The position numbers and the translations under genes are program-made. 64,000 nucleotides of DNA from contig JAMASS010000007.1 of the NCBI GenBank assembly GCA_024761205.1, positions 1-64,000 of the forward strand. The letters are read 5' to 3'. The notes under the pieces were generated by a model that had not been told where the DNA came from, did no database searches, and saw only the letters and a program-made list of their open reading frames with translations. Within the stretch, counting starts at the first letter, position 1; every line of letters begins with the position of its first letter. Shown here piece by piece: positions 14,539 to 45,414 of the stretch. The DNA is from Limisphaerales bacterium. GTDB lineage: Bacteria > Verrucomicrobiota > Verrucomicrobiia > Limisphaerales > AAA164-E04.

Positions 14539-15171
14539 ATGCAAGAGTTTATTGCGGAAGCGCTGACATTGATCAACCTGCCGTTTACGGTGCTCTTCGG
14601 CTTTGTGTTCCTCTATTGGGGGCTGGTCGTTATTGGCGCGCTAGATATGGACGCCTTTGACTTTGACCTGAACTTTGATGCCGACGCGGATGCCGGAGGT
14701 GGGGGCCGATTTGCACAGGCGTTGGCGCACTTCTTTCATGTGGATGAAGGGCCCTTTATGGCGATCTTCAGCTTGCTCATCGTCTTCATGTGGATGGCCG
14801 CCATGCTTTTGAACTACTATTTCAATCCGAGTCATTCTTGGTTGATGGCCGGACTGCTGGCGATTCCCAATTTTGTGGTGAGTGTCACGGCCACAAAAGC
14901 CATTGTTTTGCCCGTGCATCGTTTGCTCCGACGATTCCATCGCCAGGAGGAATCCGCCGAAGTCCCTTTGTTGGGAATGATTTGCCGGGTCATCACTTCG
15001 CGGGTCGATCATGTATCCGGACAAGCTGAGATTGAGCGCGAAGGGATGCCCATCAAGATCAACGCACGGACGCTAGAGGAAGCTGATGTGTTGGAGAAGG
15101 GCAACTCCGCTGTGATTTTTTCAGAAGACAAAGAGAAAAACATATACTTCATCAAGAAACTAGAGGACTGA
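14539..15171 (+). CDS. YqiJ-like inner-membrane protein with NfeD-type OB domain
   Basis: From ATG 14539 (MQEFIAEALTLINLPFTVLF) the product has 210 residues: a first membrane span, an acidic Asp-rich loop (FDFDLNFDADADAGGGG), two further spans (FMAIFSLLIVFMWMAAMLLN and LLAIPNFVVSVTATKAIVL), and a soluble beta domain (PLLGMICRVITSRVDHVSGQ, AEIEREGMPIKINART) of the OB-fold type found in YqiJ/NfeD proteins. These are partners of SPFH proteins and help organise membrane microdomains. The start is chosen at the family N-terminus; an upstream ATG at 14506 adds 11 basic residues. It lies one base before the flotillin gene. Confidence 0.85.
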   Translation: MQEFIAEALTLINLPFTVLFGFVFLYWGLVVIGALDMDAFDFDLNFDADADAGGGGRFAQALAHFFHVDEGPFMAIFSLLIVFMWMAAMLLNYYFNPSHSWLMAGLLAIPNFVVSVTATKAIVLPVHRLLRRFHRQEESAEVPLLGMICRVITSRVDHVSGQAEIEREGMPIKINARTLEEADVLEKGNSAVIFSEDKEKNIYFIKKLED

Positions 15172-15172
15172 T

Positions 15173-17257
15173 ATGGATTCAATATTAGGATTCCCGCAGC
15201 TCGTGGGGGCGATAGGGTTAATCGCGCTTATGGTCATTGCCATAGGGTTCGTGATTCTGGTGGTCAAGTGCTACCGAAAGATTGAACAGGGCAAGGCCAT
15301 CGTCCGCAACGGCATCGGCGGGACCAGGGTCTCGTTCAGCGGGATTGTTGTCGTGCCGGTGATCCATCGCTTTGAGGAAATGGATATCTCCCTCAAACGA
15401 ATTGAGATTTATCGCCACGGGGAAGATGGCTTGGTATGTATGGATAACATCCGCGCCGACATCAAAGTGGCGTTCTTCGTTCGGGTCAACAAGACCTCGG
15501 ACGATGTGCTGCGAGTGGCGCAGTCCATTGGTTGTTCACGCGCTTCGGACCAGCAAGCCTTGGTGGAGCTTTTTGATGCGAAGTTTTCCGAAGCCTTGAA
15601 GACGGCAGGCAAACAGTTTGATTTTACCGATCTGTATAGTGAACGAGAGCGGTTCAAGGAGGAGATTCTTAAGGTGGTGGGAACGGATCTAAACGGGTTC
15701 GTGCTCGATGATGCGGCGATTGATTATCTGGAGCAAACGCCACTCTTGAAGCTCGATGAAAATAATATCCTCGATGCTGAAGGCATCAAGAAAATCACCA
15801 AACTAACGGCTGAACAGAAGATTCTGGCCAACGAAATTCAGCAGAACAAAGAGAAGACGATCACCAAAGAAAACGTCGAAGCCCGGGAAGCCATTTTAGA
15901 GATGGAACGGCAGCTGGCGGAAACCGAGGAACGCCAAAAGCGTGAGATCGCCAACATCAAGGCCCGCGAAGAAGCGGAGGCCAAGAAAGTCTCAGAGGAA
16001 GAACGATTGAAGGCCGAACAAGCCCGTATCGCTTCCGACCAAGAAATCGGGATCTCTGAGGAGAACAAGGACCGACAGATCATCGTGGCGCAGAAGAACA
16101 AAGAGCGCACCAAGGCGATTGAGACGGAACGGTTAGAGAAGGATCGTCTGTTGGAGGCTACCGAACGGGAACGGATCGTGACTTTGACTCAGATCGAGAA
16201 GGAGAAAACCATCGAATCCGAGAAGAAGAATATCCAGGAAGTGATTCGCGAACGGGTTGAGTTGGAAAAGACTGTTGTGGCAGAGCGAGAGCGAACCAAA
16301 GACGTCGAAGCCTTTGCGTCCGCAGACCGCGAAAAGAAAGTCGTGGTGACCCGGGCTGAGATGACGGCAGAAGAAGCCCTGGTGCGCGATATCAAAGCTG
16401 CCGAAGCCGCTAAGAAAGCAGCTGAGCTCAAAGCGGAAGAAGAGAAATATCAACAATTGGTGGCCGCACAGGCGGCGCGGGAAGTCAGTGATCTGAAAGC
16501 CGAGGAGATATTGGTCTTGGCCGATGCCGAAGAGAAAGCGGCCGAAAAGGAAGCCAACGCCGTGAAACTTCGTGCCGAGGCTAAGACGGCCGACATCGCC
16601 GCGCTGGGAATGGCCGAAGTGTCTGTCACACAGGCCCGCGCCGAGGCCATCCGACAGCAAGGCGAGGCGGAGGCCAATGTGATGCAACTGAAGTTCAGTG
16701 CCGAAGCTAAGGGGATCACCGAAAAGGCGGACGCCATGAAAGAGTTCGACAGTGTCGGACGCGAGCACGAAGAGTTCAAGTTGTGCTTGAATAAGGACAA
16801 GGAAATCGAGCTGGCCGAGATCAATGTTCAGAAGGGGATTGCCGAGGAACAGGCGAAGATCGTGGGCGAGGCATTGAAGAGCGCCCGCATCGATATCGTG
16901 GGTGGTGATGCCGCCTTCTTCGATAAGATTGTTTCATCAGTCGCCCAAGGCAAGGCGATCGACCGTGCTATGGAGAACAGCCGAGTCTTGACCGATGTCA
17001 AAGAGACTTTTTTCAACGGTGACTCGGAATACTTCAAATCGCAGTTCAAGGACTGGATTCAGCAATTTGGTCTCTCCAGCGACGATCTAAAGAACATGTC
17101 CATTTCCGCGATCCTGCTGCGAATGATGTCGGAGACGACGGATGGATCCGTGAAGGCCACTATGCAGCGGGCCTTGCAGTTGGCCGCTGACAAAGGGCTA
17201 GCCGAGAAAACAGCGGTCGAGGTCTTGGGCAAATTGTCTGCCAAGAAGAAGGCGTAG
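15173..17257 (+). CDS. Flotillin-family SPFH protein (YqiK-like)
   Basis: The 694-residue protein has an N-terminal membrane anchor (LIALMVIAIGFVILVVKCY), then an SPFH/Band-7 domain to about residue 200 (IVRNGIGGTRVSFSG, YRHGEDGLVCMDNIRADIKV, TDLYSERERFKEEILKVVG). A coiled-coil Glu/Ala/Lys-rich region of about 300 residues follows (KREIANIKAREEAEAKKVSE), typical of flotillins, and then a C-terminal region with QQGEAEANVMQLKFSAEAKG and a terminal helical domain. It should oligomerise at the inner membrane. The gene sits one base after the YqiJ-like gene and 32 bases before a giant ATPase gene, a neighbourhood I recall recurring in other bacteria. All parts look intact. Confidence 0.9.
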   Translation: MDSILGFPQLVGAIGLIALMVIAIGFVILVVKCYRKIEQGKAIVRNGIGGTRVSFSGIVVVPVIHRFEEMDISLKRIEIYRHGEDGLVCMDNIRADIKVAFFVRVNKTSDDVLRVAQSIGCSRASDQQALVELFDAKFSEALKTAGKQFDFTDLYSERERFKEEILKVVGTDLNGFVLDDAAIDYLEQTPLLKLDENNILDAEGIKKITKLTAEQKILANEIQQNKEKTITKENVEAREAILEMERQLAETEERQKREIANIKAREEAEAKKVSEEERLKAEQARIASDQEIGISEENKDRQIIVAQKNKERTKAIETERLEKDRLLEATERERIVTLTQIEKEKTIESEKKNIQEVIRERVELEKTVVAERERTKDVEAFASADREKKVVVTRAEMTAEEALVRDIKAAEAAKKAAELKAEEEKYQQLVAAQAAREVSDLKAEEILVLADAEEKAAEKEANAVKLRAEAKTADIAALGMAEVSVTQARAEAIRQQGEAEANVMQLKFSAEAKGITEKADAMKEFDSVGREHEEFKLCLNKDKEIELAEINVQKGIAEEQAKIVGEALKSARIDIVGGDAAFFDKIVSSVAQGKAIDRAMENSRVLTDVKETFFNGDSEYFKSQFKDWIQQFGLSSDDLKNMSISAILLRMMSETTDGSVKATMQRALQLAADKGLAEKTAVEVLGKLSAKKKA

Positions 17258-17289
17258 TCCGACAGCCGGGAATCTAGGAGAGACCTGTC

Positions 17290-20200
17290 ATGGCGGATCA
17301 GGATCCGGACACACCCAAGGAGATGGCCGAGGCCTCGAGCGAGATCGCGCTGGAAGGCGGGAGTTACGAGATCATTCGTTCCCGACTCAATGGCCAAGGC
17401 GAAGAATTATCGGCACGTTTGACGCGCCTGAACGAGCTGCGCCGTGAGGTCTTCGGTTCCGTTCCCACGGTCTTGCTGCGGGCCGAGCGCATCACCACCG
17501 ACCACAATTGCGTGCCTCGGGATATGGTGACGGTGGGGGAGAACCGATTCCTTTTCGGTTACAACGTTCACTTTGGCCTCAAGTCCGAGATCCAACTCTC
17601 GGATGTGTTTGCTGTCTATGAATACCGAGAAGACGGTTTCCACGCAGTGGAGACGGACTTCCTGGCAGGGGATCAGTTCGCGGACGATTTCAAGAGTCTC
17701 TACAAGTATTACAAGAACACGAAGTTCGTAAAATTCTCTTTCATCGGTCCCTATTTGTTCATGGTTTTTCGCGTCGGGCAACAAGTGTCCGACGTCAAGA
17801 CCTTCAAGTGGTTGCTTAAAGATAGCGGAATCAGCTACATCGGCAATCGGAGCGATCACGAATTTTCCTTCCCCAAACAATACGAATGCGACTGGGTGCG
17901 CACGCATCGCGATTTGCACCGGGACGGAGCTCATCCCCACATTTCGATTGAAGATCGCCTTTTTGTGTCGTGCGCTGACGGGATGTTCACGGCCAAAGTG
18001 GAGGACAATACCGAGAGCGGCAGAGGCATCTACTCCGAACCCGTCGATCATGAAGATCAGACGCTAGACGATGCGGAGATTTTCTATGCGAACATTGGGA
18101 CATTGATTCTGCTGAAGATCCGACCGTTTCAGGAGAAACGGTTTCGGTTCTTCGTCTTCAACGACAAATTGAAGACCTTGGAAAAGATTGACGCCTTGGA
18201 ACATTCCTGCGTTCGGTTACCGGAGGATCAGGGGATCATATTCTCCGACGGCTATTATCTTCAGCCGGGGATACTCAAGCGTTTCGACACGAACAAGACC
18301 GACATGCTGTTCGAGCGATTGGTGTCGTCGAACAATGGGGAAGATTACTTGTACGTCTTTTACAATCGGATGTCGGGCGACTATGTGATGATGTCGTACA
18401 ACTTGATTTCCAAGACAGTGGACAACCCGATTCTCTGCAACGGGTTCTCTCTGTTCGAAAATGGGGAGCTTGCGTACTTCAAATGTGAAGAGGAAGCACA
18501 GAAGCACCACCTCATCCAGATTTGGCAGACGCCGTACGTGGCTCCGGAGTACGAAAAACAGGCCAACAAGGAATCCTTCCTCTACAAAATCGGCAATCGG
18601 GATGTCGTGCGATGCATGGCGGAGTGTCAGGACATTCTTAACCTCATTCGCAAGGACGAGACTTATGGGGGTTTATATGTGGATATCGTGCGGGCGACCA
18701 GTGATATCGTGGATTCGTATTTTTGGATCGACAAAGAGGAGGCCTTCAATCTCCGCGAGTCGTTGGAACAAATCAAGGAAACCGCCATCCGGGCCATTGA
18801 CGAATTTGACAAGGTTCGGCGCATTCGGAGGGAGACTGAGAGCACTCTGGCGCAGGTGAGCGAGGCAACATCGGCATTGCTGCGAGGCATCGCCAAGAGT
18901 GACGTGGCGAGTATCGATGAGTTTGTGAACCACTTGGCAGCTTTGCGCAAAGCACGGGGCGAAGTAATCTCGTTGAAACAATTGCGGTACATCGATTTGC
19001 CGGCGGTTGAGGCCTTGGAAGAACGAGTGGCCAGCAAAAACGATGCGCTCTCGCAGCGTTGTGTGGAGTTCCTGCTAGAACCGAAGTCTCTCGATCCCTA
19101 CCGCCAGCGAATTGAAACACATATGGCCATGATACCGGAACTGATGAAGGTGGCCGAGGGAGGGGAACTGCAGGAGGCGGTTAAGCAGTCAGGTGAGGAG
19201 TTGGAGATGCTCATCGAGATCGTCAGCAATCTCAAGATTGAGGACGCGACGGAGACCACTCGGTTGATCGACCAGATCACCAACATCTATTCGACCCTGA
19301 ACCAGGTCAAAACCGCACTAAAGAACCGGATCAGCAGTCTGGCCTCCGTGGAAGGCGCAGCTCAGTTCCATGCCCAGTTGAAACTCCTGTCGCAGTCGGT
19401 AATCAATTACCTGGACATCTGTGACACCCCCGATCGCTGCGATGAGTATCTCAATAAGTTGACCGTCCAGATTGAGGAACTGGAGGGCCGATTCTCAGAC
19501 TTCGACGATTTTATCCTGCAGCTCTCAAACAAGCGGACTGAGGTCTACGAGGCCTTCGAGTCCAAGAAACTTCAACTGGTCGAAGCGCGAAACAAGAAAG
19601 CCAACGCGATGATGACTTCCGCCGAGCGGATCTTGAAAGTCATTCAGCATCGTTTGGAGAGCATGGCTGAGCTGGACGAGATCAACGGTTACATGGCGGC
19701 CGACATGATGATCGAGAAGATCCGCGATTTCATTCGGCAGCTCCACGAGCTGGATGACTCCGTCAAGGCGGAGGAATTGACTGGTCGATTGAAGGCGATC
19801 CAAGAAGATGCCGTCCGTCAGCTGCGGGACAAGAACGAGTTGTTCGTCGAAGGACAGAATCTGATTCGCTTCGGTGAGCACCAGTTCCCCGTCAATATTC
19901 AGCCTTTGGATCTGACGATGATTCACCGTGATGGGCACATGCAGCTGCATCTCACCGGGACGCGGTTTTTCCAACCAATTGACGATCCGGAATTTCTGGC
20001 CACGGAAGCGGTTTGGAATCAAGAGAGCCCGTCCGAAAATGAGTCCGTTTATCGGGCGGAGTATTTGGCGCATCGGATGTTAATGGACCTAGTGGAACGC
20101 AGAGCCGTGGTCAGCTATCTCGAAGCTGATGAGGATCAACGCCTCAGTGAGGTTCAAGCGTTTATGGGGCCACGCCATACCGAAGCCTATCAGAGGGGCG

Positions 20201-22695
20201 TTCACGATGTGGATGGAGAACGAATTTTGACCGCATTGGCGCATCGTTGGCGGAATCTCGGCTTGGCCCGTTTCCAACCAACGGCTCGAGCATGTGCCTG
20301 GCTCTACTGGCATCTCTTGGAAAACGAGGAGCAAAAGGGACTTTGGGAAGCTCAACTTCGGGGCTTTGGTGAGAGAAATCAGGCCTTCCCCGGGGATGAA
20401 ATGCGCGCGGAATACGTGACCGCTCTGCGCAGCGGCATTGAGTCCTTCTACGAGGGCAAGACTCTCTTCCCGAGCGAATCCCTTCCAGAAGCTGCGCTCT
20501 ATCTCTTTCATCAACTGTGCTCCAACGATCCCTTTGTCATAAGTCAGGAGGCAGCCGGACTGAGCAAAGCCTTCGAACAACACCTGGAAAGCCATCGACT
20601 CCGGGACGCCTTCCGCGGCATTCGTGAAGCCATGAAACCTGAGCCCGTGCGCGAATTTCAGCTCGTGCGGGATTGGGTGCGCGGGTTTGTCTTGCACAGC
20701 GGCCAACCGGAACAACGCCGATTCATCAACGAAGTGGTTATGGTTCAGTTCGTCGGGCAGTTTAACCCTCGCCAGGTCAGCTCCGAACAAGTGAGCGGCT
20801 CCCTTGAAGGACTACGAGGCTCTCACCGAAATATCGACGACGGACGATACGAATTGGACTATCTAGCATTTACAGAACGCTTGAACCAATTCGATTCCAT
20901 CGAAGTCTCACTCTATCACCGCTACCATGAGCGCAAACAGGCATTGATCAAAGATGCTCGAGAAACCATGCGCTTGGACGAATATAAGCCGAAGGTCCTT
21001 ACGTCTTTTGTACGCAATCAACTGATCGACCAAGTGTTTCTGCCGTTGATCGGGGACAACTTAGCCAAACAGATCGGCGTCGCTGGCGACAGCAAACGAA
21101 CCGATCTGATGGGGCTGCTGTTACTGATCAGCCCACCGGGCTACGGCAAGACCACTCTGATGGAGTACATTGCCAATCGACTCGGCATCACCTTCGTCAA
21201 GATCAACGGCCCCGCCTTGGGCCACCAGGTCACCTCCTTGGACCCGGCCGACGCCGTAAACGCAGCCGCCCGTGAGGAAGTCCAGCGGCTGAACTTCTCC
21301 CTGGAGCTGGGTGACAACATAATGATCTACGTCGACGACATTCAACATTGCCATCCGGAGTTTCTCCAAAAATTCATCTCCCTTTGTGATGGCCAGCGTC
21401 ATATCGAAGGCGTGTGGGAGGGTAAGTCCCGCACTTACGACCTGCGCGGCCGCAAGGTGGCGGTGGTGATGGCCGGCAATCCCTACACCGAGAGCGGCGA
21501 GAAATTCAAGATCCCGGACATGCTGGCCAACCGGGCGGACACTTACAACCTGGGCGACATCATCGGTTCGCACGAAGCCGCCTTCAAAGCCTCGTACCTC
21601 GAAAACGCCCTGACCTCGAATCCTGTCTTGGCCCAGCTGAACAACAAGAGCCGCCGAGACATCCAAATTTTCATCAAGATTGCCGAAACCGGTTCTCGAG
21701 AAGGCATGGGATTCGAAGCCGACTACTCCGTCGAAGACATCAATGAAATCCTGAACGTGCTCACCAAACTCGTTCGGATCCGCGATACCGTCCTTGCAGT
21801 GAATCAAGAATACATCCGATCTGCCGGGCAACAAGATGCCTACCGGACTGAACCACCCTTCAAGCTCCAAGGTTCGTATCGCAACATGAATCGCCTGGCC
21901 GAAAAGACCCTACCAATCATGAACGACCAAGAGGTCCAGGATCTCATCATCGACCACTACGAGAACGAATCCCAAACCCTAACCTCTGGAGCCGAAGCCA
22001 ACCTCCTAAAATTTCGCGAAATCAACGGCTGGTTATCCGAGGCCGACCAAGCCCGTTGGGAAGAGATCAAAAAAGTCTTCTGCCGCAACCAAATCATGGG
22101 CCAAGGCGATCCATCGGATCCAGTCGGCCGAGTTGTGTCCCAACTCACGGTTTTCGGGGAAGGCCTCCAAGATATCCGCAAAACCTTAGAAGAACGCTTT
22201 AAGTCGCTGAACACCAAGCCGCTGCTAGACCTAAAGCCTCTGGCAGAAAGCCTGAAAACGATCTCTCAAGCCATCGGTGAGCGAGGGACACCGGGCGAAG
22301 CATCGACACCAGTCCAACAGGGAGAGGCCAGTGACGTGTCACCTGTAATCACTGAATTTGGTCGCACGCTAGAAGGCATCCGAAACGCCTTGGCAAAAGA
22401 TTTACCCCAAGCAGTCGCCTCCGTGGCCTCTGAGGTGTCAGTCGGTCAACTGCAAACAGAACTGACCAACCTGAAGGAAGACCTTTCAATCGTCCGTGAG
22501 ATCCTAAAACGATACGAAGCTGAAAAGAGTCAAAAACCCGGCAAACCCGAGCCCGGCAACGTCAAAGAAGACGTCGACCTGAGCGGCGTTACTATCACGC
22601 GACGCACGTTGAACCAAATCTACAAACTCATCGAAAAAGACGAGAAACACCTCGAGTTCATCAAAGCCAACAAGAGGGCGACTGGAAAAGAGTAA
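17290..22695 (+). CDS. Giant AAA ATPase of the 'DNA repair ATPase' annotation family, flotillin-associated
   Basis: The 1801-residue soluble protein has a ribosome-binding site AGGAG at 17276-17280. The N-terminal ~400 residues form a beta-rich, propeller-like region (GENRFLFGYNVHFGL, FVKFSFIGPYLFMVFRVG, DYLYVFYNRMSGDYVMMSYN). Long helical or coiled-coil segments follow at about 450-870, and then a unique region. An AAA domain lies at about 1260-1480, with Walker A ISPPGYGKTTLMEYIANRLG near 1280, Walker B NIMIYVDDIQHCHPEF near 1343 and sensor VVMAGNPYTESGEKFKIPDM. The C-terminal ~300 residues are helical (LAESLKTISQAIGERGTPGE, LKEDLSIVREILKRYEAEK). Homologues are often labelled DNA repair ATPase without evidence I know of. 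Linkage to YqiJ and flotillin argues for a membrane-associated remodelling role. The frame is unbroken over 5.4 kb in a genome full of pseudogenes, which implies selection. Confidence 0.88.
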   Translation: MADQDPDTPKEMAEASSEIALEGGSYEIIRSRLNGQGEELSARLTRLNELRREVFGSVPTVLLRAERITTDHNCVPRDMVTVGENRFLFGYNVHFGLKSEIQLSDVFAVYEYREDGFHAVETDFLAGDQFADDFKSLYKYYKNTKFVKFSFIGPYLFMVFRVGQQVSDVKTFKWLLKDSGISYIGNRSDHEFSFPKQYECDWVRTHRDLHRDGAHPHISIEDRLFVSCADGMFTAKVEDNTESGRGIYSEPVDHEDQTLDDAEIFYANIGTLILLKIRPFQEKRFRFFVFNDKLKTLEKIDALEHSCVRLPEDQGIIFSDGYYLQPGILKRFDTNKTDMLFERLVSSNNGEDYLYVFYNRMSGDYVMMSYNLISKTVDNPILCNGFSLFENGELAYFKCEEEAQKHHLIQIWQTPYVAPEYEKQANKESFLYKIGNRDVVRCMAECQDILNLIRKDETYGGLYVDIVRATSDIVDSYFWIDKEEAFNLRESLEQIKETAIRAIDEFDKVRRIRRETESTLAQVSEATSALLRGIAKSDVASIDEFVNHLAALRKARGEVISLKQLRYIDLPAVEALEERVASKNDALSQRCVEFLLEPKSLDPYRQRIETHMAMIPELMKVAEGGELQEAVKQSGEELEMLIEIVSNLKIEDATETTRLIDQITNIYSTLNQVKTALKNRISSLASVEGAAQFHAQLKLLSQSVINYLDICDTPDRCDEYLNKLTVQIEELEGRFSDFDDFILQLSNKRTEVYEAFESKKLQLVEARNKKANAMMTSAERILKVIQHRLESMAELDEINGYMAADMMIEKIRDFIRQLHELDDSVKAEELTGRLKAIQEDAVRQLRDKNELFVEGQNLIRFGEHQFPVNIQPLDLTMIHRDGHMQLHLTGTRFFQPIDDPEFLATEAVWNQESPSENESVYRAEYLAHRMLMDLVERRAVVSYLEADEDQRLSEVQAFMGPRHTEAYQRGVHDVDGERILTALAHRWRNLGLARFQPTARACAWLYWHLLENEEQKGLWEAQLRGFGERNQAFPGDEMRAEYVTALRSGIESFYEGKTLFPSESLPEAALYLFHQLCSNDPFVISQEAAGLSKAFEQHLESHRLRDAFRGIREAMKPEPVREFQLVRDWVRGFVLHSGQPEQRRFINEVVMVQFVGQFNPRQVSSEQVSGSLEGLRGSHRNIDDGRYELDYLAFTERLNQFDSIEVSLYHRYHERKQALIKDARETMRLDEYKPKVLTSFVRNQLIDQVFLPLIGDNLAKQIGVAGDSKRTDLMGLLLLISPPGYGKTTLMEYIANRLGITFVKINGPALGHQVTSLDPADAVNAAAREEVQRLNFSLELGDNIMIYVDDIQHCHPEFLQKFISLCDGQRHIEGVWEGKSRTYDLRGRKVAVVMAGNPYTESGEKFKIPDMLANRADTYNLGDIIGSHEAAFKASYLENALTSNPVLAQLNNKSRRDIQIFIKIAETGSREGMGFEADYSVEDINEILNVLTKLVRIRDTVLAVNQEYIRSAGQQDAYRTEPPFKLQGSYRNMNRLAEKTLPIMNDQEVQDLIIDHYENESQTLTSGAEANLLKFREINGWLSEADQARWEEIKKVFCRNQIMGQGDPSDPVGRVVSQLTVFGEGLQDIRKTLEERFKSLNTKPLLDLKPLAESLKTISQAIGERGTPGEASTPVQQGEASDVSPVITEFGRTLEGIRNALAKDLPQAVASVASEVSVGQLQTELTNLKEDLSIVREILKRYEAEKSQKPGKPEPGNVKEDVDLSGVTITRRTLNQIYKLIEKDEKHLEFIKANKRATGKE

Positions 22696-27002: not shown

Positions 27003-28154
27003 ATGAAGGTTGGTTCGAAGCATCGGGTCTGGGCGGAGATTGATCTGGAGGCGCTCGCTAACAATCTGCGATGGATTCGGTACGGAATGGGTGATGCCTT
27101 TGACGTGATAACCGTGGTCAAGGCCGATGCCTATGGGCATGGATTGCCTCAGATTGCCGGCTGTTTGATGCAGAGTGGGACTCATGCTTTGGGGGTTGCT
27201 AATTTAGATGAGGCTTCGGCCGTTCGTTCAGTCGGCAGCGGCTGGCCTATCCTGATGCTAGGTGCGTGCTTCGGAAAGGCAGAGTTCGAGGAATTGTGTC
27301 ATGACGATGTGATCGCGACGATCTCAAGCTCCAGCGAGGCAGACGAGCTTTCTGCTGTTGCCTGTAAGCGGGAAAAGGACGTCTTGGTTCATCTCAAGGT
27401 GGATACCGGAATGAGCCGATTAGGGGTGGCGCCTGAACGAAGCCTCTCATTGGCGCGGCAGATCGTGGAGTTACCGAGGCTGGAGCTCGAGGGGGTTTTC
27501 ACCCATCTTTCTGTGAGTGAAGACGAAGATGAATTTACCCATGAACAGCTCGGGCGATTTCGGCGTTGTATTTCACACTTGCGGGAGAATGGGCTGACCT
27601 TAAGAAAGGTCCATGTTATGAATAGTGGCGGGATCGCTTATGGGCCGGCACCCGTTGGAAACATGGTTCGACCGGGGCTGTTGGTTTATGGCATCGTGCC
27701 GCCTGGCCGGCGAAAGCCGGTGATTGATTGGCTAGGGCGCCTAAAGCCGGCGCTAAGTCTGAAGACGAGGGTGGGACTGGTGAAGAAAATCGGAACGGGA
27801 ACTTCTGTCAGCTATGGCCGAGTTTTTGTGAGTCCTGAGACTCGCAAAGTGGCGACGATTTGCGCTGGCTATGGAGATGGTATTTTACGATCAGGGAGCG
27901 GTTGCCTCGAGGTATTGATCAGGGGGCAGAGGTGTCGTGTTTTAGGAAATATCACTATGGATCAAACTATAGTTGATGTAAGCCGAGTTACTGACGCGCA
28001 GCGTGGCGATGAGGTTGTGATTATCGGTGAACAAGGTGGATCATTGATTACTGCATTAGAAGCCGCTGCCGCGTGTGAAACGATTCCGTGGGAGATATTA
28101 ACATCGATTACCCAGAGAGTTCCCCGGATTTACCAAGGGATGGCGGTTGCCTAA
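27003..28154 (+). CDS. alr: Alanine racemase
   Basis: The 383-residue PLP enzyme interconverts L- and D-alanine for peptidoglycan. The PLP lysine is K40 in VVKADAYGHG. Other family landmarks are VDTGMSRLGV, the MNSGGIAYG region, VRPGLLVYGIVP, the catalytic Tyr in SVSYGRVF, AGYGDGILR and MDQTIVDVSRV. It starts at ATG 27003 after AGGAA and closes the thiL-tsaE-tsaB-alr cluster. Directly after it, gene decay begins and lasts for about 12.8 kb. Confidence 0.95.
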   Translation: MKVGSKHRVWAEIDLEALANNLRWIRYGMGDAFDVITVVKADAYGHGLPQIAGCLMQSGTHALGVANLDEASAVRSVGSGWPILMLGACFGKAEFEELCHDDVIATISSSSEADELSAVACKREKDVLVHLKVDTGMSRLGVAPERSLSLARQIVELPRLELEGVFTHLSVSEDEDEFTHEQLGRFRRCISHLRENGLTLRKVHVMNSGGIAYGPAPVGNMVRPGLLVYGIVPPGRRKPVIDWLGRLKPALSLKTRVGLVKKIGTGTSVSYGRVFVSPETRKVATICAGYGDGILRSGSGCLEVLIRGQRCRVLGNITMDQTIVDVSRVTDAQRGDEVVIIGEQGGSLITALEAAAACETIPWEILTSITQRVPRIYQGMAVA

Positions 28155-28540
28155 ACATCGGGTTATTGGCTGTCCGCTATGAGGATCGCTAGCCGGCAAA
28201 CCGAAAGTGCGAACGAGTGTGAAAATACTTCCGCTGAGGTGCTGGGATCCGATCTGTATCTCGCAAAAAACCACTCCTTACCGGCGCGCTGTTGTATGAT
28301 TCAAGGCAAATCGTGACACGCTTGTCGCTTGTAATTTTGTCCCGCCTTTACGAGGCGTCTGCTCAATGAGCAAGTCGGCGTTTCGCTATCGGGTGAAACA
28401 AGATATCAATACCATCGGAGTCTGATTCAACGGGGGCGCCTGCGAGGCCTGGGAGAAGCTACTCAGTCCGCATTCCTCTTGCGAGAGAACGCCACGAATC
28501 AGTTTCCAACGCAAGCGGATTGCGTGCGCCCCTCGGGAGC
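28155..28540. other. Decayed DNA upstream of an IS1595-like remnant
   Basis: No intact gene. The right half probably held the zinc-ribbon N-terminus of the transposase that follows, but the frames are too damaged to show it. No inverted repeat end could be fixed by eye. Confidence 0.35.
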
Positions 28541-28546
28541 AGCCCG

Positions 28547-29170
28547 GTGGGGGAGGGGCTTTCATCACAGTCAATCCGCCGTTGCATCAGTGGTTTTTGG
28601 CCGTCTCGCTCATCTTGAGCGGCAAGAAGGGCTTGCAGTTAGCCCGATTTGAAGGTGAATAAAAACGCCGCCGGGCGTCTCTCGATGCAGATACACCAAG
28701 CGATGCACCCCAAACGGATCATCGGCGGTTGCGTTCCGGGACCGTGGAGATGGATGAGACCTATCTCGGCGACAAGCCCAAGGAAAGGCCACCACCACCG
28801 GGGCGGCCGAACGAACGGGGAGAGGGTGCCGCTGATAAAACACCGGTGATCGGCCGGCGGCCGAGGACAAGCTCAAGGGAAGGCTTCTCCGTGCTGTTGG
28901 GCGTGAATGAGTGGACAAGGCCCATTTGATGACCGATGAATACAAGGTGGTAAAGCGGCCTGCGCCGTGATGGGAGGTTACACCAACGGCATCGTTTGTG
29001 AACGCCTTGCGCCCGGCGTGCGGAAGGAATTGCGAGAGAAGAATCTGAGTTCAAGTAAGCGGCCGGCGCAGGCACAAACATCATCCATGCTTCACACCGG
29101 AGACGTGGAGCATCTCAAGCTCAAGGAAGGGTTTATCGGCGTCATTGCCCGGATGAGAGCCGCTGGCTAA
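28547..29170 (+). pseudogene. IS1595/ISXO2-type transposase remnant (copy 1)
   Basis: Several frames together spell an IS1595-family transposase. HQWFLAVSLILSGKKGLQLA at about 28583-28640 matches the family's segment before the helix-turn-helix. The catalytic-core opening VEMDETYLGDKPKERPPPPG follows at about 28745, then KTPVIG. The later His/Asn motif and the C-terminus are unreadable, apart from a tail around 28967-29170. Frameshifts and stops separate the pieces, so it is dead. The intact element would encode a DDE-type transposase with short inverted repeats, which I could not locate. Confidence 0.7.
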
Positions 29171-29497
29171 CTGAGAACAGTTTCCGCCACCCTCTTGGGC
29201 GGCCCTATCCTAAACCAACGGAAACACCCCGTCCGTCTTTCCCTGACCTTGAAGATTGTTCTCGTCCGCTGACGCTTATGAACAACCAAAATAGCCAACA
29301 CCTTAACCTATAAAATCCCGTTATGATAAAGATTTTCGTCCAGATGAACCGCCACATCCGACGTGTTATAAAGCGTCTTCTCGCTTTCGTATTGGGCGGT
29401 GTTTCCTCGGAGAGGGATGTCCCTTGAGGATTGGCATAAACGCCACTAAAGTGTCCCTCAGTTCTCTGATTTCCTCAAAGGCATAGGAATTATTCGG
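29171..29497. other. Intergenic/decayed stretch
   Basis: Nothing recognisable on either strand. Confidence 0.4.
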
Positions 29498-29840
29498 CTA
29501 GAAATCAAAGATGTATAAACTGGCATCGCTGTTTGGAGCGGTCAGCCGTGGCAAATGAGCCAACGCTTTGGCACCGTCGATATTCGATCAATTCCGACCA
29601 TGCCCATGTACGGCGGGTGAGCCCGATAGTTCTCTGTGTTCATGAAATAGACTTGGGCATCCCTCGTCCCCAACTTTTCGATGATGAATTTAACGAACTC
29701 AAGATTAGCGAGATAGGCATCCCGCATGGCATCGAGCCCCTGATAGGAAAGCCTTTCGAAAGTCTCTCGATCGGGAATCCTCGCCACTCCCAGACTGAAC
29801 TTGAGATCTTCTGGTTCAATGTGCTCTCCCGTTGCCTCCC
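29498..29840 (-). pseudogene. C-terminal remnant of an unidentified protein
   Basis: A minus-strand frame reads RIPDRETFERLSYQGLDAM, then DAYLANLEFVKFIIEKLGT, VYFMNTENYRAHPPYMGMVG and, after a frameshift, ALAHLPRLTAPNSDASLYIF with a proper stop at 29498. The composition is clearly protein-like and the end looks authentic, but the upstream part is broken. It lies just downstream of the decayed epimerase on the same strand, so both probably belonged to one sugar-related gene cluster. I cannot name the family. Confidence 0.5.
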
Positions 29841-30049
29841 CTCAAAAGCCACCGTGTCCTCCTTCGCATTGGCCTAGCAAAGAATCATCGAGAATCAAAA
29901 AAAGCAGACAGCGGCTCATCAAATTCGACCTTTATCTGCCGCTCGGCGGTAACATTGAGTCAATTGTTCGGGCACCAACGTCCAGATAGGTCTGCCATGC
30001 GCAAATCAAAGCTCTTGGCCCAAAAACTAATGCTGAGTGGCCGAGCGAC

Positions 30050-30890
30050 CACCCAAAGGCTTCAACACAGATGAAAGAAACTCTTTCACATATTTCCTTT
30101 CAGCGGAACGGATATCCTCCCGTCCCGATGTAAGTAACCAAACCACTCACCATATTCTAATCGACAAGAGTGACCGAACCCTCCATACACAAACCAAGTT
30201 GAACCTCCGTGCGGCCCGCTTCTTGCCCGTCAATCAGCAGGCTATTGAGTTGCGATCATGGCCTCGTTATGAGGCCATCAAAACTTCATATCATGCCAGT
30301 AATCCTCACCGGTTTTCCATCGACATCACGGAAGTAGAACAGACCGCCTTATTCCGCATCCTAACCACAGTCCCATATCCGATCCGACATGCGCACGCCT
30401 AGCTGAATCATCTCGGCGTCCTCCGAAGGCGACCTTCCTTTATATAAATCACGAGGCTTCAATAGCGTGGCTGAGATTTAGTAACCGCCCATCAAAGTGA
30501 TCGATGATTTCGCCATCACTGCCTACCGACTTCATTACAACCTGCCAACCCTCCTTCACAAAGAGCAAGCGAATCTCATTGATACAGCGGCCGACCCAAT
30601 TCTCAAACACCACATCCTCGCCCAGATTCTTCCGAAGCTCCTGAGCGGATACCAAGGCGATCAGGTAGGTCCCAGCCCAATCATCGGTCGGGTATCTATA
30701 TATTTTGGGGACATCAAACTTAGGGTCCAATGCCACCGAGTAAACGATTTAAAAAGAAGGGAATTATATACATAGTTTGGCGTGCCGTCTTGAATTTACT
30801 GCTACTTCGGACATGGCATGAGCAGAGTCCACCGGCGTAAAGCACCGGGAAAAGGGATGCCGCCGACAGTGTCACAGTCATCGAGCTGAT
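30050..30890 (-). pseudogene. Decayed N-acylglucosamine 2-epimerase (AGE family)
   Basis: The longest piece (30736-30449) ends with VGSDGEIIDHFDGRLLNLSH and AIEAS, matching the AGE motif where NPGH is normal; here it has become NLSH. Further fragments follow downstream in other frames: FYFRDVDGKPV, WPHNEA and EWFGYLHRDGRISVPLKGN, in the order expected for the family. Upstream, a shifted frame gives an arginine-rich stretch like the usual LRKRRY. AGE enzymes epimerise N-acetylglucosamine/N-acetylmannosamine or related sugars. Multiple stops and frameshifts make it a clear pseudogene of a cytoplasmic sugar enzyme. Confidence 0.8.
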
Positions 30891-30984
30891 GAATATGTCC
30901 ACCCACTTGAGACAGCGGCCGCCAAGTGTGTTTGAAGCACAAGTATAGGCCAAAAGACCGCCTGTTTCATGCTCCATCGCCTGC

Positions 30985-31460
30985 GTCAAGCTTAGGCCGT
31001 GCGAAGGCAAGGACGCCCCGTTCTCCGACCCGGGCTGAGGCGGATGAAACTTACTTCAGCGGGAAACATGCCAACATGAGCAACGCTCGCCGAAGGCTGC
31101 TTAAGGGCGCCGGATGCGGGCACCGTGAGTAAAAGCGGGAGGGGGGCGGCATGAAAGTTTTGCACTCGGTTAGGAACCCGGAACCGCCAAGGGCGGGCGC
31201 CGTGGGCAAGAGGGCGGCGGGGTGCACGGACGAGGCAGCGGCTTATGCAGGATTCGCCCATGAGGAGATCAATCACTCTGAATACGTGTGCGGCACGGTG
31301 CACCCGAACGGCGTGGAATTCTTCTGGCTCATGCTGAAACGGGCGGGTCGAGACGTTCATCTGCGGGCCTTGCCGAGGTTGGCGTCATCGTCTTCGTTGA
31401 TGAGGCGAGGGATCACCAACGCATCCTCAGAGGAATGCGCCGAGAGCGGTTATCCTTGAG
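30985..31460 (+). pseudogene. IS1595/ISXO2-type transposase remnant (copy 2)
   Basis: Fragments in family order are visible: TRAEADETYFSGKHANMSNA at about 31029-31088, then after a gap CTDEAAAYAGFAHEEINHSE and YVCGTVHPNGVEFFWLMLKR at about 31226-31343. These match the DDE core, the TDE...Y...H segment and the HTNxIESFWSxLKR motif of IS1595 elements. Asn is kept but the usual HTN is HPN. Stops and frameshifts interrupt it, so it is inactive. Copy 1 preserves a different part of the family protein. Confidence 0.75.
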
Positions 31461-31925
31461 AAATTCCTCGCCGCCGGGCTTCAGCCTTGGACGTTGTCCT
31501 TCGGGTTTCATCGGCTGCCGGCTCGGGGCTTGGTCTGGAGTGCATGAGACAAAGCGGCCATCCTTGATGGGACCTTGCATCAATCATGCTGTGTGCGCAC
31601 TTAAACCCGGGCGTGCCGGAAGAACTGCGCTGCCGCAATCCTAGTGATGCCGGACACTGTGAATCAGCCCGTGGATCCGCTCGCAGTCCTCCACGGAAGA
31701 ATTGCGCTGCCGCAATCTAGTGATGCCGGAGATTGGTCGCCCGAGATTGAAGGGGCATTTTGACCTTCCGCCGGCGGCATTGATGCGAGCAGCCATCCGA
31801 TTTTGGGGACCTTTCTTTCCGGCGTCGGCTTGATCGGGCCTTGCCAGAGCTCTAATGGAACGATCCCGCTTGCTGTTGGACGATTACCCCGCCCCCCGAG
31901 GCGCCAGCGAGAGACCGAGTGGACA
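31461..31925. other. Decayed stretch containing the direct repeat pair
   Basis: Apart from the repeat pair there is no recognisable gene. Short frames on both strands are of low quality. Confidence 0.35.
31619..31730. repeat. Direct repeat pair of about 35 bp
   Basis: The unit GAAGAACTGCGCTGCCGCAA followed by TCCTAGTGATGCCGGA (31619-31654) recurs at 31696-31730 with one substitution and one missing base. The 77-base period and the position just after a transposase relic suggest a duplicated end or a short tandem array remnant. Confidence 0.75.
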
Positions 31926-31929
31926 ATGC

Positions 31930-33180
31930 CCTCTATCCTGCAAAGATTTTTGCCGCTAAATCAAGTGTATAATCCGCAAAAAGTTAAGCGCGCCATCTGG
32001 TCCCATGACCACCATCTTTGCTCAGGACTCTGCCAATCAACGAATGGAGGGACCGGAGGACTCCTTGGGGCTTTGGCCTGGTTTTGATGAGAACCTAACC
32101 CAGTGGAAGTATCGGTTGGTTGGATTCTATCCTGGGTGGCGGATGGATATGGAATGGTTTCGCCACAACTGTGCGTTCAACACGCTCTGGGTGCCGGGCC
32201 CTGTGTTTTCTATTCGTGAGACGAGAGTGTGGATTTGAGCTGGTACCGGGGAGGTGCCTGTCAACTCACCAGATTTTTAGCCAGATCGAATGGCTGAACC
32301 ATCCGAAAACTGGCTCGATACTCTATGAAGAGACTCAGAATTTACCGAACCTTTGTCGTAGTGATGTCGCTTTGCTCGCCTGGCGGTGTGAATACAGACG
32401 TGGCAATCACCGATAATCTGGTGGGCCCCTGAGGTTTGATCAAACATTGGAGGACGCTTCCGGCCGGGGCAATCACGGGAGTGCTATGGGAGATGTTGCT
32501 TTTGTCGGTGGCGTTGTGGGCTCTCACGGTGTTTTGGTTTCGTCGAACAAGGATAGCTCTTCATTTGACTTTGTGACTTTGGGTGCGCTTCAACGATTGG
32601 GAAGGCGATCCGCCATTGATTTCCGACAAGGATTGTCAGTGAACCTGCGGAATTCAAGTCGACGCCTCATTACCGCCGGTGATTCAGTCTTGACTGTTGG
32701 CGCAGACGAGAGTGGTCGGTGGCGAGGTCCGTCTGACGGGCGATGCGATCGGTGTGGCTCCCCCGCTAATAACGTTTCAGTGGTTGAAGGATGAGAGCCT
32801 CATCAGTGGCGCGCCCGAAGGTGAATTTGAAATTGGTTTGGCTCGGGAGTCGGACACTGGCAGCTATTCAGTCCGAGTGACCGCCGGTAAGGGGTTGTCG
32901 ATAACCAGCGAAATCGCTTTGGTTGAGATTGCGGGTAACATTCAACAAGATTTGGTGGTTCACCTGACTTTGGATGAGAGTGTCATCGACAGTGGGGCCT
33001 TGCGGTTTTCATAGACGGCTTCCGAGTCCAACTATATCACCCTAGGTCGCCCCGGCGATTTGAATCTCTCTGTTGACGCCGATTTTTCTCTTTCGTTCTA
33101 GGTGAAGTTTAGCGAATGGGCCTTGGATCCGGTCTTGATTGCCAACAAGAAAGCCCGTATAGGTCCCGTGACGGGTTGAT
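31930..33180 (+). pseudogene. Decayed secreted protein with Ig-like and LamG domains
   Basis: Pieces in several frames indicate one large extracytoplasmic protein. About 32005-32237 gives NLTQWKYRLVGFYPGWRMDM with MEWFRHNCAFNTLW. About 32460-32570 gives a LamG-like start (GVLVSSNKDSSSFDFVTLG). An Ig-like domain at about 32697-32940 has PPLITFQWLKDESLISG and SDTGSYSVRVTAG. A second LamG follows (QQDLVVHLTLDESVIDSG, then YITLGRPGDLNLSVDADFSL) with an in-frame stop near 33100. Such proteins bind or process polysaccharides at the surface in PVC bacteria. Many stops and frameshifts rule out function. Confidence 0.65.
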
Positions 33181-33318
33181 CTTTAGGTTGTTGGGTGGTT
33201 TTTTTTGATGTTTGGTGTTGCTGGGTTTGTTTTGGGAGCAGTCAACTGAAGGCCGATTGGTTAATGTGTTATCGGGTGTAATTCTCTTGGCTGTCGGCGG
33301 TGCTGGTTTGGTTTTAGG

Positions 33319-33960
33319 GTGATGGCAGGGGACGGAATCAAAAGGTTAGTCGGTGGAGATCCGATAGCTCGCATCGACCCTTTCGCGGTCTCAAGCAGAG
33401 AAAGCGCTGAATCGTTTAGCTTGTGGTGCGCGGTATTCTTGGCGGCGTTGAAACTCTCGAAATGGAGGTGCCGCTGGATGGAGAGCGTTTACCTTCCTTG
33501 CCGTCAGGCATTGTTGGGTAGGGAGAATAGCGGAAGGGGTGGTTTCATCTTGGGTTATTCGAAGCAGGTGCAACGCGTGGTCGAGCCGATGACTGAGGCA
33601 TCACCACCTTTGGAGAAGCTGTGGTTCAGCTACGATCTGAGCGATGATGAAACGTTGGAGATCGCTAGAAGGGCGTTGGTGGAGTAGCTGGCTCAATCAA
33701 ATGATTTCATGGCAGGGTGATTCTTCCGAGCTCGTGGTGGAAGAGCTGTTCATGTATCCCTATTGGCCCAATACACCAGGGGGAAGCGAAAGAAGATCTC
33801 GCTGGAAATGATCGATGGTTTGACGGGGGGGTTGGCGAAAATTCTGGTTCGGCATGGATTCCTTGAGCCGTTAAAAGCGGGCTTTGATTCGTGACGATCC
33901 CTACCGTTTTTGTTCTTTGCCCTATGATTTTCATGCCGCTCCCTGCTAGCGTTGAACGCC
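33319..33960 (+). pseudogene. Unidentified decayed gene
   Basis: A 122-codon frame at 33319-33687 ends with PPLEKLWFSYDLSDDETLEI, and shifted frames continue with KRKKISLEMIDGLTGGLAKI and LVRHGFLEPLKAGFD. This looks like the C-terminal part of a real protein broken by frameshifts. No family is recognised. Confidence 0.35.
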
Positions 33961-34114
33961 CCGATTAGCCGAGCCGTCCCACGCTAGCCGCGGACAGAGG
34001 AAACTAGGACTTCATTGGGCGTGCTATGGCTCAAGGGGGGGGGTGCCGCGAATTGTTGAGCTCCACCCCTGCGGGCTCAATTCGCATCTTGAGCGATCCA
34101 GTCGCGCAGCTATG

Positions 34115-34516
34115 GAAACTCCCTACGGGTAATTATTCCGCTTAACCAATGGTGGCATCTCCATATTTTTGATTCGCCCCGAAGGGTAGAGCAATAGCGG
34201 GCTCTCGTTCAGTTGTCCGGCGACAATTGCTGGTGATCCACTTTTCACCCCTTTGCATGAGCGTGGCCCGGCTGGTCGAGTGAAATCTCGCTTTAGGCCT
34301 TTTCCTTCTGCGGCACCGAACACAGGACTGCTTGAGAAGCGGTTTGATGTTGCGGTCGCTTCGATTCGTTGCCTTCACAAGGCTTGTCTGCGGAGCCGAA
34401 TCGGAGATCGCTTGAGGGGTGGCGAGGAGCATGTCCATCGTCGCCCGCGACGCCCCTGCAATCGATATCCACTGATTGCGTCCGTGAGGGAATCGACTAT
34501 CGAAAAGCGGGTTCAT
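34115..34516 (-). pseudogene. Decayed Planctomycete-type cytochrome C (PSCyt1-like) domain
   Basis: Two minus-strand frames together give the domain: IKPLLKQSCVRC at the heme site, then SGSPAIVAGQLNESPLLLYP and IKNMEMPPL. The family pattern is a CxxCH heme site followed by a Gly-rich loop, an ...SPLL... segment and MPP with the second heme ligand. Here CxxCH has become CVRCR, so covalent heme binding should fail even without the frameshift. It lies downstream of the ankyrin-region pseudogene on the same strand and may have belonged to the same protein. Confidence 0.65.
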
Positions 34517-34619
34517 CGGCCCGGCCCGACGCTGAACAAACCAAGAGCCGTCGTCAAATTCGGTCTATAGCAAGTATTGGAGACCTTGTTGGCAGGCCCG
34601 GTGAGCGGTCGAAATCTCT

Positions 34620-35563
34620 CCATCTAGTCGGAGGCCACCAAGCGTCTGACCCGTTGCTCAAGCGTTGCTGGGTAGGCCGGGGAGCTGTGGCTAGCCACCG
34701 GTTTTGTTCTGTAGGCCAAGATCGTTGCGGTGATGGCTTGCTGTTCAATTTGAGGTTTCCCCGGTCCACTTGAGGTTGAGGAGGCGGGAAACGTGTGCTC
34801 CTGAAGCGTCACCGTCTTGGCGTCCCGAAGCCACTGCCCAACCGAACAGCCGTTCCGTGAAGATAAACCGATTCTCCATCTGATGCGACGGTAGTCCGAG
34901 TAGCTCACCAAGTGAATCAGGGCATTGGTTCCCAGCCCGGTTGGGAACAAGGGATCGATACCTTGTTCGAGGAGTAGTGAGGCAACGTCGAGCTGGTCGG
35001 CAAGTGAAGTTCGATGGAGCGCATGGCCAGAAAAGGCATCCTTAAGATTGGGACCCGCTCCGTATTCCAATAAAAGCGCCACCATGTCTCGCCTGCTCTG
35101 TTCGGAGCGATGGAGAGGAATTGGCGAAGGTAGCAGCCGAGGGAGGACTCGCTTGCGGAATTTCTTGCCAATGGAACCAGGATTGGTTGAGGCTGGTCGG
35201 CGAACCATCAACCCGCCGAGGAAAATACCATTGAGCAGCCAGTGAAGTTGTTGGTGGGTCAAGCGAATCTGAGTGAGGATGATAAACCAACCCAAACCGG
35301 CACTCCAGCGGAGACACCGAAAGACAGCGGTCTGAAGGTAGTCTGCCAAGAGAACCGTAAGCCCGGACCAGAGCATGGACCACACCGGGAGCACAAGTCG
35401 TAGGGTTATCAGATCTGCGTGATTGGGCCCAAAGCCGAATCAGCAGGCTATCCGTAATGATGAGAGCGCCACTTTGAATGGCGGTCGGTTTAACCAGTTC
35501 GCTAAAATCATAAAGCGCGGGGGCACTGGCGAACGGAATGATGACTGCTATCGCAGTCATCAT
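34620..35563 (-). pseudogene. Decayed ankyrin-repeat membrane protein
   Basis: The clearest part reads ALLLEYGAGPNLKDAFSGHA and DQLDVASLLLEQGIDPLFPT with TNALIHLVSYSD, consecutive ankyrin repeats at about 34880-35090. Upstream in another frame a hydrophobic region (VLPVWSMLWSGLTVLLADYL, WSAGLGWFIILTQIRL) suggests two or three membrane spans. Ankyrin repeats mediate protein binding. Frame changes between the two regions and in the tail show it is broken. With the adjoining cytochrome domain it may have formed one heme- and ankyrin-containing membrane protein. Confidence 0.6.
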
Positions 35564-35904
35564 TCCACGAAACGGCTTCGGCCGTGATTTTGGCGACTAA
35601 CGATGCAAGGATGTCGGTCGCAGATGATTCCCTGGTTGTAGCCGCTGATGTAAGTCGTGGCAGATTTCATGTCGTTGCGTTATTGTAAAAGTGAGCGGTT
35701 ATCCTTGCTGCTACCGATCAGTTTTGACCCGGCGGTTTAGAACTGGACCGCGCGATGTCGCTTCCCGAAAATGGTGGTGTACGGACCGCTTTCGCTATAC
35801 ATATCCGCTCGCGTGTTTGCGGGGCTAAGACAGTTGTTTTTGCGGTGTCTGCCTCGGCAAGTACGAGAGACTGGTGGAAGGATGTTGTTAGAGCGGGGCG
35901 CTAG

Positions 35905-36990
35905 TTGGTCCCTTGGCATCTCTTCTTCTGCTTCGCTGCGGGCCTCGTTGCCCAGCAATCCGACCTCGCATTCACCAAATATCAGCGGTGGTCAACGAAC
36001 GACGGTCTGCCCCAAAGCAGCATTCAGACGCTTCACCAGTCCCAGGATGGGTATCTTTGGATTGGAACCGAGGATGGGGCGGTTCGGTATGATGGATTTC
36101 AGTTTGTCAATCTGAGCGATCATGCCGATGCCGCATTGCTGCATGAGAAGGAGATCATTGGCATGGAAGAATCGGCGGAGGGTTGCTTTTTCACCCTTGC
36201 CTAGAGCGCAGTGGTCATTTTCAAAAATGGACATTTCTCCAAGCTTGATTTGCTGAGCGAGTTGGAGGGGGGGAGGACTTAAGGGCATTTTGTCCAGCCA
36301 GCAAAAGGTGGCTTCTACATCGCTGATGATTGGCGGCTGTACCATGTAAAAAAGGCTTCGTTGCCTCTCGAATGATCCGTCAAGACGGAGTTCCGTCAGC
36401 GCGGCGATCTTTTGGAGAAGGCAGAGGGCTTGATGCTTTATGCGACGCGACATACACCGGTCTTTATTGGGTTGATCCGGAGAAGCGAAGCTTGAACTTG
36501 CTTTACTCGGTTGAGAACGGGCCTAGATCAAACTTTGCCTCCAATCTTTTCGAAACCAGAACGGTCGGTTGTAAATTTCCGAGGTCAAGAATAAGTAGTG
36601 GGGGACATAACAATATTCAGAGGGGTGAGGATGTGCTTCATATGTTGACAGCAAGATCTCCGGAATCGATTTGCTGCCTTTGGTGGAGTCTGGCCAGTTG
36701 AGTTGCTTTCTGATTGATCGTGAGGGCTATCGCTGGATTGGGACACGTTGCAATGGATTTTTCCGGTTTGGTCCGCGGTTGAAGCACATCTATACCGCGG
36801 CGGATGGCTTGGGGAGCGGCTTTGTTCGATCGGTTTGTGTCGGAAAAGGGGGGCGTTTGTGATGGAGTTTGACGGCCCATTTTGAGGAGTATGCGTATCT
36901 ATGGAACGGGTACAACGCGACGATTAACTCGGTGTTAGAATTGAGGAGAGGTGAATTCTGGCTCGGAATGGAAAAGGGTGTGTTCAAACA
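35905..36990 (+). pseudogene. Decayed two-component regulator propeller (Reg_prop) sensor
   Basis: The start (LFFCFAAGLVAQQSDLAFT) resembles a signal peptide. It runs into a first propeller blade, WSTNDGLPQSSIQTLHQSQD then GYLWIGTEDGAVRYDGFQFV. A stop ends this frame at 36204. Further blades occur in other frames: REGYRWIGTRCNGFFRFGP at about 36720-36780 and YTAADGLGSGFVRSVCVG. These are the repeated periplasmic sensor blades of hybrid two-component regulators. Kinase and receiver domains are not seen, so the gene is both frameshifted and truncated. Confidence 0.7.
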
Positions 36991-37019
36991 GTGTGAGTCG
37001 GGTTTTCAACGAATCGATC

Positions 37020-43984: not shown

Positions 43985-44023
43985 ACAAATAAAAACGCGA
44001 AGGCGATTAATTGCCTTCGCGTT
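43985..44023 (-). terminator. Rho-independent terminator downstream of the glutaredoxin gene
   Basis: A perfect 11-pair stem AACGCGAAGGC/GCCTTCGCGTT (43994-44004 and 44013-44023) with an eight-base loop is followed on the minus strand by TTTTTATTT. It lies 27 bases past the glutaredoxin stop and separates that gene from the DUF2868-DUF3482 pair. Confidence 0.9.
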
Positions 44024-44049
44024 GGATCAATGCGTTCGTTAAAGCTGTC

Positions 44050-44400
44050 TCAAGACCGGAAATTGACGGACTGTTCTTCATGTACTTCGTCGGGGCAAGG
44101 CGCATTGGTGGGGGCGTCAGCTTCCTTGCCGGAAGGCGTAACCAGCTTGTTGGCGAGGAGGTAAGCCTCGACCTCTTCACCGCTCACGTCCGCCAGCATC
44201 ACACCATTGACTTGTACACAGGGACTAAGCATCTGACCGCTCTTTTCGATCATTTCCTGACGTTGGGCGGGGTCATTGATGATGTCGCGATCTTCGAATT
44301 CAAGGGAATATTTCCGCATTATGGCGCGCACTCCTTCACTCCACCCGCAGTAAGGCTTTAAGTAAGCAACAACTTCTAAAGGTTGATTTGTATCACTCAT
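44050..44400 (-). CDS. Glutaredoxin-like protein with CGWS active site
   Basis: From ATG 44400 (MSDTNQPLEVVAYLKPYC) the product has 116 residues. The thioredoxin-fold strand runs into the active site PYCGWSEGV, a monothiol-type CxxS at 18-21. The cis-Pro region LSPCVQVNGVMLADVSGEE and a final helix follow. The C-terminal tail of about 25 residues (EADAPTNAPCPDEVHEEQS) is acidic and has an extra Cys. Glutaredoxins reduce mixed disulfides or handle Fe-S clusters. The CGWS variant (not CGFS or CPYC) leaves its biochemical class open. An ATG at 44415 would add five residues. A strong terminator follows. Confidence 0.85.
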   Translation of the reverse strand: MSDTNQPLEVVAYLKPYCGWSEGVRAIMRKYSLEFEDRDIINDPAQRQEMIEKSGQMLSPCVQVNGVMLADVSGEEVEAYLLANKLVTPSGKEADAPTNAPCPDEVHEEQSVNFRS

Positions 44401-45404: not shown

Positions 45405-45414
45405 CGGACAGAAC

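Follow-up and report, generated by a model that had tools for sequence, protein, structure and literature searches.

Does a giant ATPase that carries a DNA repair label in Pfam and at NCBI in fact work at the membrane? The question is raised by a stretch of 64,000 nucleotides from a Limisphaerales bacterium (contig JAMASS010000007.1 of assembly GCA_024761205.1; in the following "the window"), which contains an operon of three genes encoding a YqiJ/YuaF-like protein, a flotillin-type SPFH protein and a giant AAA+ ATPase of the DUF3686 family. A sequence-only reading of the locus had favored a membrane machine over a repair enzyme. The co-occurrence of the ATPase with flotillin, its YqiJ and PspA neighbors and the lack of recurrent repair genes around it speak for this assignment; as a candidate, however, it is not new. 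An operon of YqiJ/YuaF, band-7/flotillin and an AAA+ ATPase was described in 2024 (Ravi et al., PMC11237479), and because that work describes exactly this gene set the operon is not novel in kind and is a further case of an already described arrangement. We consider it likely that the operon is a machine of the envelope-stress type described there, with a soluble AAA+ remodeller on a flotillin/NfeD-like membrane platform, its remodelling or quality-control activity being putative. Our additions are a quantified, near-obligatory link between ATPase and flotillin, an apparent independence of PspA, a MoxR-like fold and an invariant Asp-Asp Walker B motif.

Co-occurrence of the ATPase with a dedicated flotillin

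Three sets of genomes were used: 289 genomes of the window's own phylum, among them 27 ATPase-positive ones (9%) in 16 genera; 296 genomes around Carboxylicivirga (Bacteroidota) with 8 ATPase-positive ones (3%); and 29 ATPase-positive genomes reached from contigs, in which G316 apparently equals G086 of the own-phylum sample. Within the own phylum we found a close flotillin in 26 of the 27 ATPase-positive genomes versus none of the 262 negative ones (Fisher p = 4e-36), and in the second phylum in all 8 positive genomes versus none of the 288 others (Fisher p = 8e-16). The third set showed the same picture (29/29). Besides the window's own protein, the close flotillins of the own phylum are 51–61% identical to it, and weaker flotillins with 29–30% identity occur in a few genomes. 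In the two phylum samples, flotillins of genomes without the ATPase share 29–37% identity with that of the window, over the N-terminal two thirds only. The sole ATPase-positive genome of the own phylum in which no close flotillin was found (G192) is 91% complete, and its congener G285 has one. The pairwise distances of flotillins and ATPases correlate with r = 0.84, a value not controlled for phylogeny.

The 110 ATPase loci analyzed for gene order come for the most part from genomes belonging to many phyla, with four plasmids in addition. Given enough sequence, the flotillin and YqiJ-like genes are located just upstream of the ATPase on the same strand with few exceptions. Flotillin was present upstream on the ATPase strand in 71 of 80 and in 21 of 26 loci; short contigs account for several of the exceptions. 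In G015, G086, G129 and G285 the two genes lie on different contigs, and at L089, L098 and L105 flotillin is missing from the ATPase locus and found elsewhere in the genome. In G086, G285 and L098 the sequence before the ATPase lacks flotillin over more than 8 kb, so that these separations are real. The link thus exceeds map proximity, because both genes are retained where they lie apart. Taken together with the lack of recurring repair genes described below, the rarity of the ATPase without flotillin means that the membrane reading survived this comparison. Two further observations concern the locus itself. L105 and L134 have identical flanking genes and an ATPase detached from flotillin, and look like one genome represented twice. 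At L036, L066 and L113 genes of mobile or unrelated appearance are situated between flotillin and ATPase, neither of which is lost; judged by eye, these insertions include transposase-like and nucleotidyltransferase-like open reading frames.

Domain structure and predicted fold of the ATPase

The ATPase matches the Pfam families DUF3686 (PF12458, 7e-176), PF25472 (8e-25) and AAA (1.7e-9), and scores 27.0 bits with AAA_5 against a cut-off of 22. It contains no predicted transmembrane or hydrophobic segment. Scans with NCBIfam and PHROGs returned generic AAA or coiled-coil matches only, and a sequence search of the PDB generic P-loop matches (VCP/RuvB) only. For the N-terminal 700 residues AlphaFold2 predicts a helix, a beta-propeller and long helices, with a mean predicted local distance difference test score (pLDDT) of 85. 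The propeller can be aligned with the WD40 domain of DCAF1 (VIA-align Z up to 9.9, 202–223 residues, root-mean-square deviation (rmsd) 4.7–7.2). Residues 860–1640 are predicted with a mean pLDDT of 86.5 to comprise one AAA+ module along with a helical part. In fold, this module is best matched by proteins of the MoxR type, namely CbbQ2 (6l1q_A, Z 17.1, 251 residues, rmsd 3.6), with NorQ at Z 16.4–16.5. Characterized MoxR proteins activate or remodel protein complexes.

The sequence-only reading had regarded both Walker motifs as intact. This applies to Walker A, which is invariant in 110 homologues save for its last T, replaced by P in one of them. In Walker B, however, the position of the catalytic Glu is occupied by Asp in the window's ATPase (DDIQH) and in 110/110 homologues, and Asp-Glu never occurs. 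Because of this Asp-Asp motif we call the ATPase MoxR-like and not a member of the MoxR family. Sensor 1 (N1397), a putative arginine finger (R1415) and sensor 2 (R1531) show practically no variation across the 110 sequences, R1415 and R1531 being assigned from their place in the AAA+ fold.

PspA as a frequent and apparently dispensable companion

PspA (PF04012) was detected in 18 of the 27 ATPase-positive genomes of the own phylum versus 21 of the 262 others, an 8-fold enrichment (odds ratio 23). In one of the 18 (G188) the match is partial, covering 52 residues only, and a lineage-specific PspA profile finds none there. In the window's genome, which is 95.1% complete, neither PF04012 nor the lineage-specific profile detected PspA. 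The latter profile gave no match in ten ATPase-positive genomes of the own phylum, the window's included; it finds two genomes from which it was partly built and misses the more distant PspA of G093, which the Pfam model recovers. In the third set PF04012 had no match in 7 of the 29 genomes, the nearest relative among them. A missing contig could hide PspA in the window's genome, less so in all ten, and a very divergent PspA is possible in the apparently negative genomes. Overall, PspA is apparently a frequent, dispensable companion of the operon. In addition, the loci L118, L125–L128, L132, L134, L136 and L137 hold the ATPase in same-phylum genomes with no convincing PspA match, and most of these ATPase genes adjoin flotillin and YqiJ.

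A bolder version of the proposed machine, which we put forward tentatively, is that ATPase and flotillin constitute an obligate PspA-independent core: a flotillin-anchored MoxR-like remodeller with clients of its own, in a bacterial membrane-remodelling class apart from ESCRT-III/PspA, some lineages having added PspA to the core. The opposite arrangement would be an operon strictly accessory to PspA, its ATPase and flotillin recycling or positioning polymers of PspA in the way that Vps4 serves ESCRT-III. The enrichment of PspA, its position at -3/-4 in many loci and the ESCRT analogy drawn in PMC11237479 would fit such a role. We nevertheless regard it as unlikely, given that PF04012 has no match in 9/27 and 7/29 ATPase-positive genomes of the own phylum and the third set, that the lineage-specific profile is negative in the ten genomes mentioned, and that the best AAA folds are MoxR-type, with no Vps4 kind among the matches listed, a comparison that included no dedicated Vps4 test.

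Neighboring genes and the DNA repair label

Clustering of the genes around the 110 loci gave PspA, a CesT-like small protein and a helix-turn-helix regulator as the clearest recurrent extra families, PspA being the commonest further neighbor and the CesT-like gene being present in some loci. No DNA-repair family recurs within about 10 kb. The label "DNA repair ATPase" (DUF3686) is therefore without contextual support, in line with the misfit that had been suspected from the sequence, and it is a dedicated flotillin that accompanies the protein instead. An actual repair enzyme with incidental neighbors is suggested by the family name "ATPase involved in DNA repair" and by an AAA domain that is weakly RuvB-like in sequence and fold. 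We consider this explanation very improbable: besides the lack of recurring repair genes and the flotillin found in nearly every ATPase genome, the fold is nearer to MoxR-type AAA+ proteins, and P-loops resembling that of RuvB are a general AAA+ feature.

The operon ranges over at least Verrucomicrobia, Planctomycetes, Bacteroidota, Firmicutes, Desulfobacterota, Actinobacteria, Deinococcus and Proteobacteria. Plasmids such as pQBR103 and one from Hymenobacter carry the same core, and their ATPase is often annotated as "DNA repair ATPase". A role in phage defense or another conflict, with the operon transferable and unevenly spread over plasmids and chromosomes, would account for the presence in 9% and 3% of genomes, the plasmid copies and the differing flanks of the three-gene unit, but is scarcely credible, as PADLOC gave no match, phage records and viral contigs lack the operon, no defense neighbor recurs at the 110 loci and stress systems are commonly patchy too.

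The YqiJ-like protein and the flotillin

The YqiJ-like protein has three hydrophobic segments, and its C-terminus probably forms an NfeD/OB-type domain, as judged from the aligned family. The window's protein matches YqiJ_N with E = 0.04, which is under the Pfam cut-off; 7 of 28 family members match this model (best 9e-8) and one matches NfeD. Compared with the PDB, the family profile gave a weak match to YuaF (2k14, E = 0.03).

The flotillin starts with a single hydrophobic, N-terminal membrane segment (about residues 10–35), followed by the SPFH region, a long coiled coil and a conserved C-terminal region. Since the Pfam models Band_7 and Flot had no match in the window's own flotillin, the scan was extended to the whole family, where Band_7 matched 6 of 32 members (best 2.8e-13). 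The flotillins of G086, G212, G294–G297, G303, G305 and G307 align with that of the window in two pieces overlapping around query residues 440–525, indicating probable changes in coiled-coil length between lineages.

Operon layout and selection

The features of the operon are listed in Table 1. The reading frames agree with the three adjacent genes recognized earlier, separated by 1 and 32 bases, and all are intact. An in-frame ATG of the first gene is also present at 14506; the sequence GGAGAGG, which resembles a ribosome-binding site, directly precedes the start at 14539. Promoter and terminator scans of the operon gave nothing informative.

Table 1. Positions in the window of the operon genes and of the parts of the ATPase
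Feature	Position	Strand	Basis
YqiJ/YuaF-like protein gene, 210 aa	14539-15171	+	open reading frame
Flotillin-type SPFH protein gene, 694 aa	15173-17257	+	open reading frame
DUF3686-family giant AAA+ ATPase gene, 1801 aa	17290-22695	+	open reading frame
WD40-like beta-propeller (predicted), ATPase residues 57-415	17458-18534	+	AlphaFold2 and structural alignment
Long helices/coiled coil, ATPase residues about 430-850, including DUF7902 (600-682)	18577-19839	+	Pfam and AlphaFold2
Single AAA+ module, ATPase residues 1226-1581	20965-22032	+	predicted structure
Walker A SPPGYGKTT, residues 1281-1289	21130-21156	+	homologue alignment
Walker B, ends D1349-D1350	21325-21339	+	homologue alignment
Poorly conserved ATPase C-terminal tail, about residues 1640-1801	22207-22692	+	conservation among homologues

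The closest relative (L032) is an uncultured Verrucomicrobia genome bin. Protein identities to it are 66, 87 and 71% for the YqiJ-like protein, the flotillin and the ATPase, while third codon positions are merely 38–45% identical across the three genes. Codon positions 1 and 2 are far better conserved than position 3 in all three, most of all in the flotillin gene. In the same order, non-synonymous divergence (dN) amounts to 0.26, 0.08 and 0.21. Synonymous divergence (dS) is saturated, which precludes an exact ratio, and dN/dS is estimated to be well below 1. These values fit the selection that had been claimed. The window and L032 have just these three genes in common; because none of the window's flanking genes is present in L032, the three-gene unit is kept as a block.

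The picture of an open operon amid decaying DNA holds for part of the flank only. Frames of at least 150 aa cover 77–99% of the sequence between 8 and 28 kb, versus 4–28% between 28 and 40 kb and between 44 and 52 kb, but the genes directly upstream and downstream of the operon are intact too. The regions 28000–40000 and 44000–52000 consist of long stretches without intact frames that contain fragments of gene families (Reg_prop, Ig-like), which suggests pseudogenes beside intact genes. Between them, at 40957–43963 on the minus strand, a DUF3482/GTPase gene (469 aa) adjoins a DUF2868 gene (536 aa); both are intact and poorly characterized.

Comparison with known systems and proposed mechanism

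In the operon of Ravi et al. the AAA+ ATPase combines a coiled coil with a beta-propeller, and full forms with a CesT/Tir-PspA pair were distinguished from abbreviated forms without it; a role in membrane dynamics was proposed, with the phage-shock system as a likely partner (PMC11237479). The window's operon shares the AAA+ protein with N-terminal beta-propeller and coiled coil, the YqiJ/YuaF protein with three transmembrane segments and the flotillin. Unlike the full form it has no CesT/Tir-PspA pair and corresponds to the abbreviated form. For such cases PspA was suggested to be encoded elsewhere (PMC11237479), whereas none was detected in the window's genome. An NfeD-like membrane protein upstream of flotillin is also known from E. 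coli YqiJ-YqiK and B. subtilis YuaF-FloT. Compared with these systems the flotillin of the window represents a subfamily of its own, and DUF3686 was found in 0/14 control genomes, E. coli and B. subtilis among them. A link between SPFH proteins and PspA at the membrane has been shown experimentally in B. subtilis, where YdjI-YdjG/H-PspA likewise joins SPFH and integral membrane proteins in an envelope-stress platform (PMC8581546); in contrast to the window's system PspA is central there and no giant ATPase is involved. RavA-ViaA, with a MoxR AAA+ ATPase, acts at the inner membrane (PMC9489729). The window's ATPase resembles it in its MoxR-like fold and differs by the flotillin scaffold, the Asp-Asp Walker B and the fused beta-propeller and coiled coils. 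No vWA partner family stood out among the clustered neighbors, although no scan aimed at vWA was made.

From the families involved, the YqiJ-like protein and the flotillin would assemble into an oligomeric scaffold at the cytoplasmic side of the membrane. The soluble ATPase would be recruited to it, probably via its beta-propeller and coiled coils. Fold and genomic context suggest that the MoxR-like AAA+ ring would then spend ATP on remodelling or activating membrane-bound protein assemblies. We think of an ATP-driven remodeller of membrane-bound complexes because MoxR proteins remodel complexes and RavA-ViaA works at the inner membrane. PspA, where present, would be a partner or client, and the core seems to run without it in the window's genome.

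Several points weigh against this mechanism. That the ATPase is active with Asp in Walker B is an assumption, and we found no experiments on any DUF3686 protein in the literature. The Fisher p-values of the co-occurrence ignore shared ancestry, and the gap that defines a close flotillin (<1e-150 versus >1e-65), though wide, was chosen post hoc. Likewise, we found no literature that joins MoxR and flotillin in this sense or names DUF3686, in a search that covered few subscription journals.

The ATPase of a widespread operon thus bears a misleading DNA repair label. Since it goes together with one specific flotillin and only in part of the cases with PspA, the question of its function narrows to a single testable interaction, and the operon raises the role of a bacterial flotillin coupled to an ATPase.
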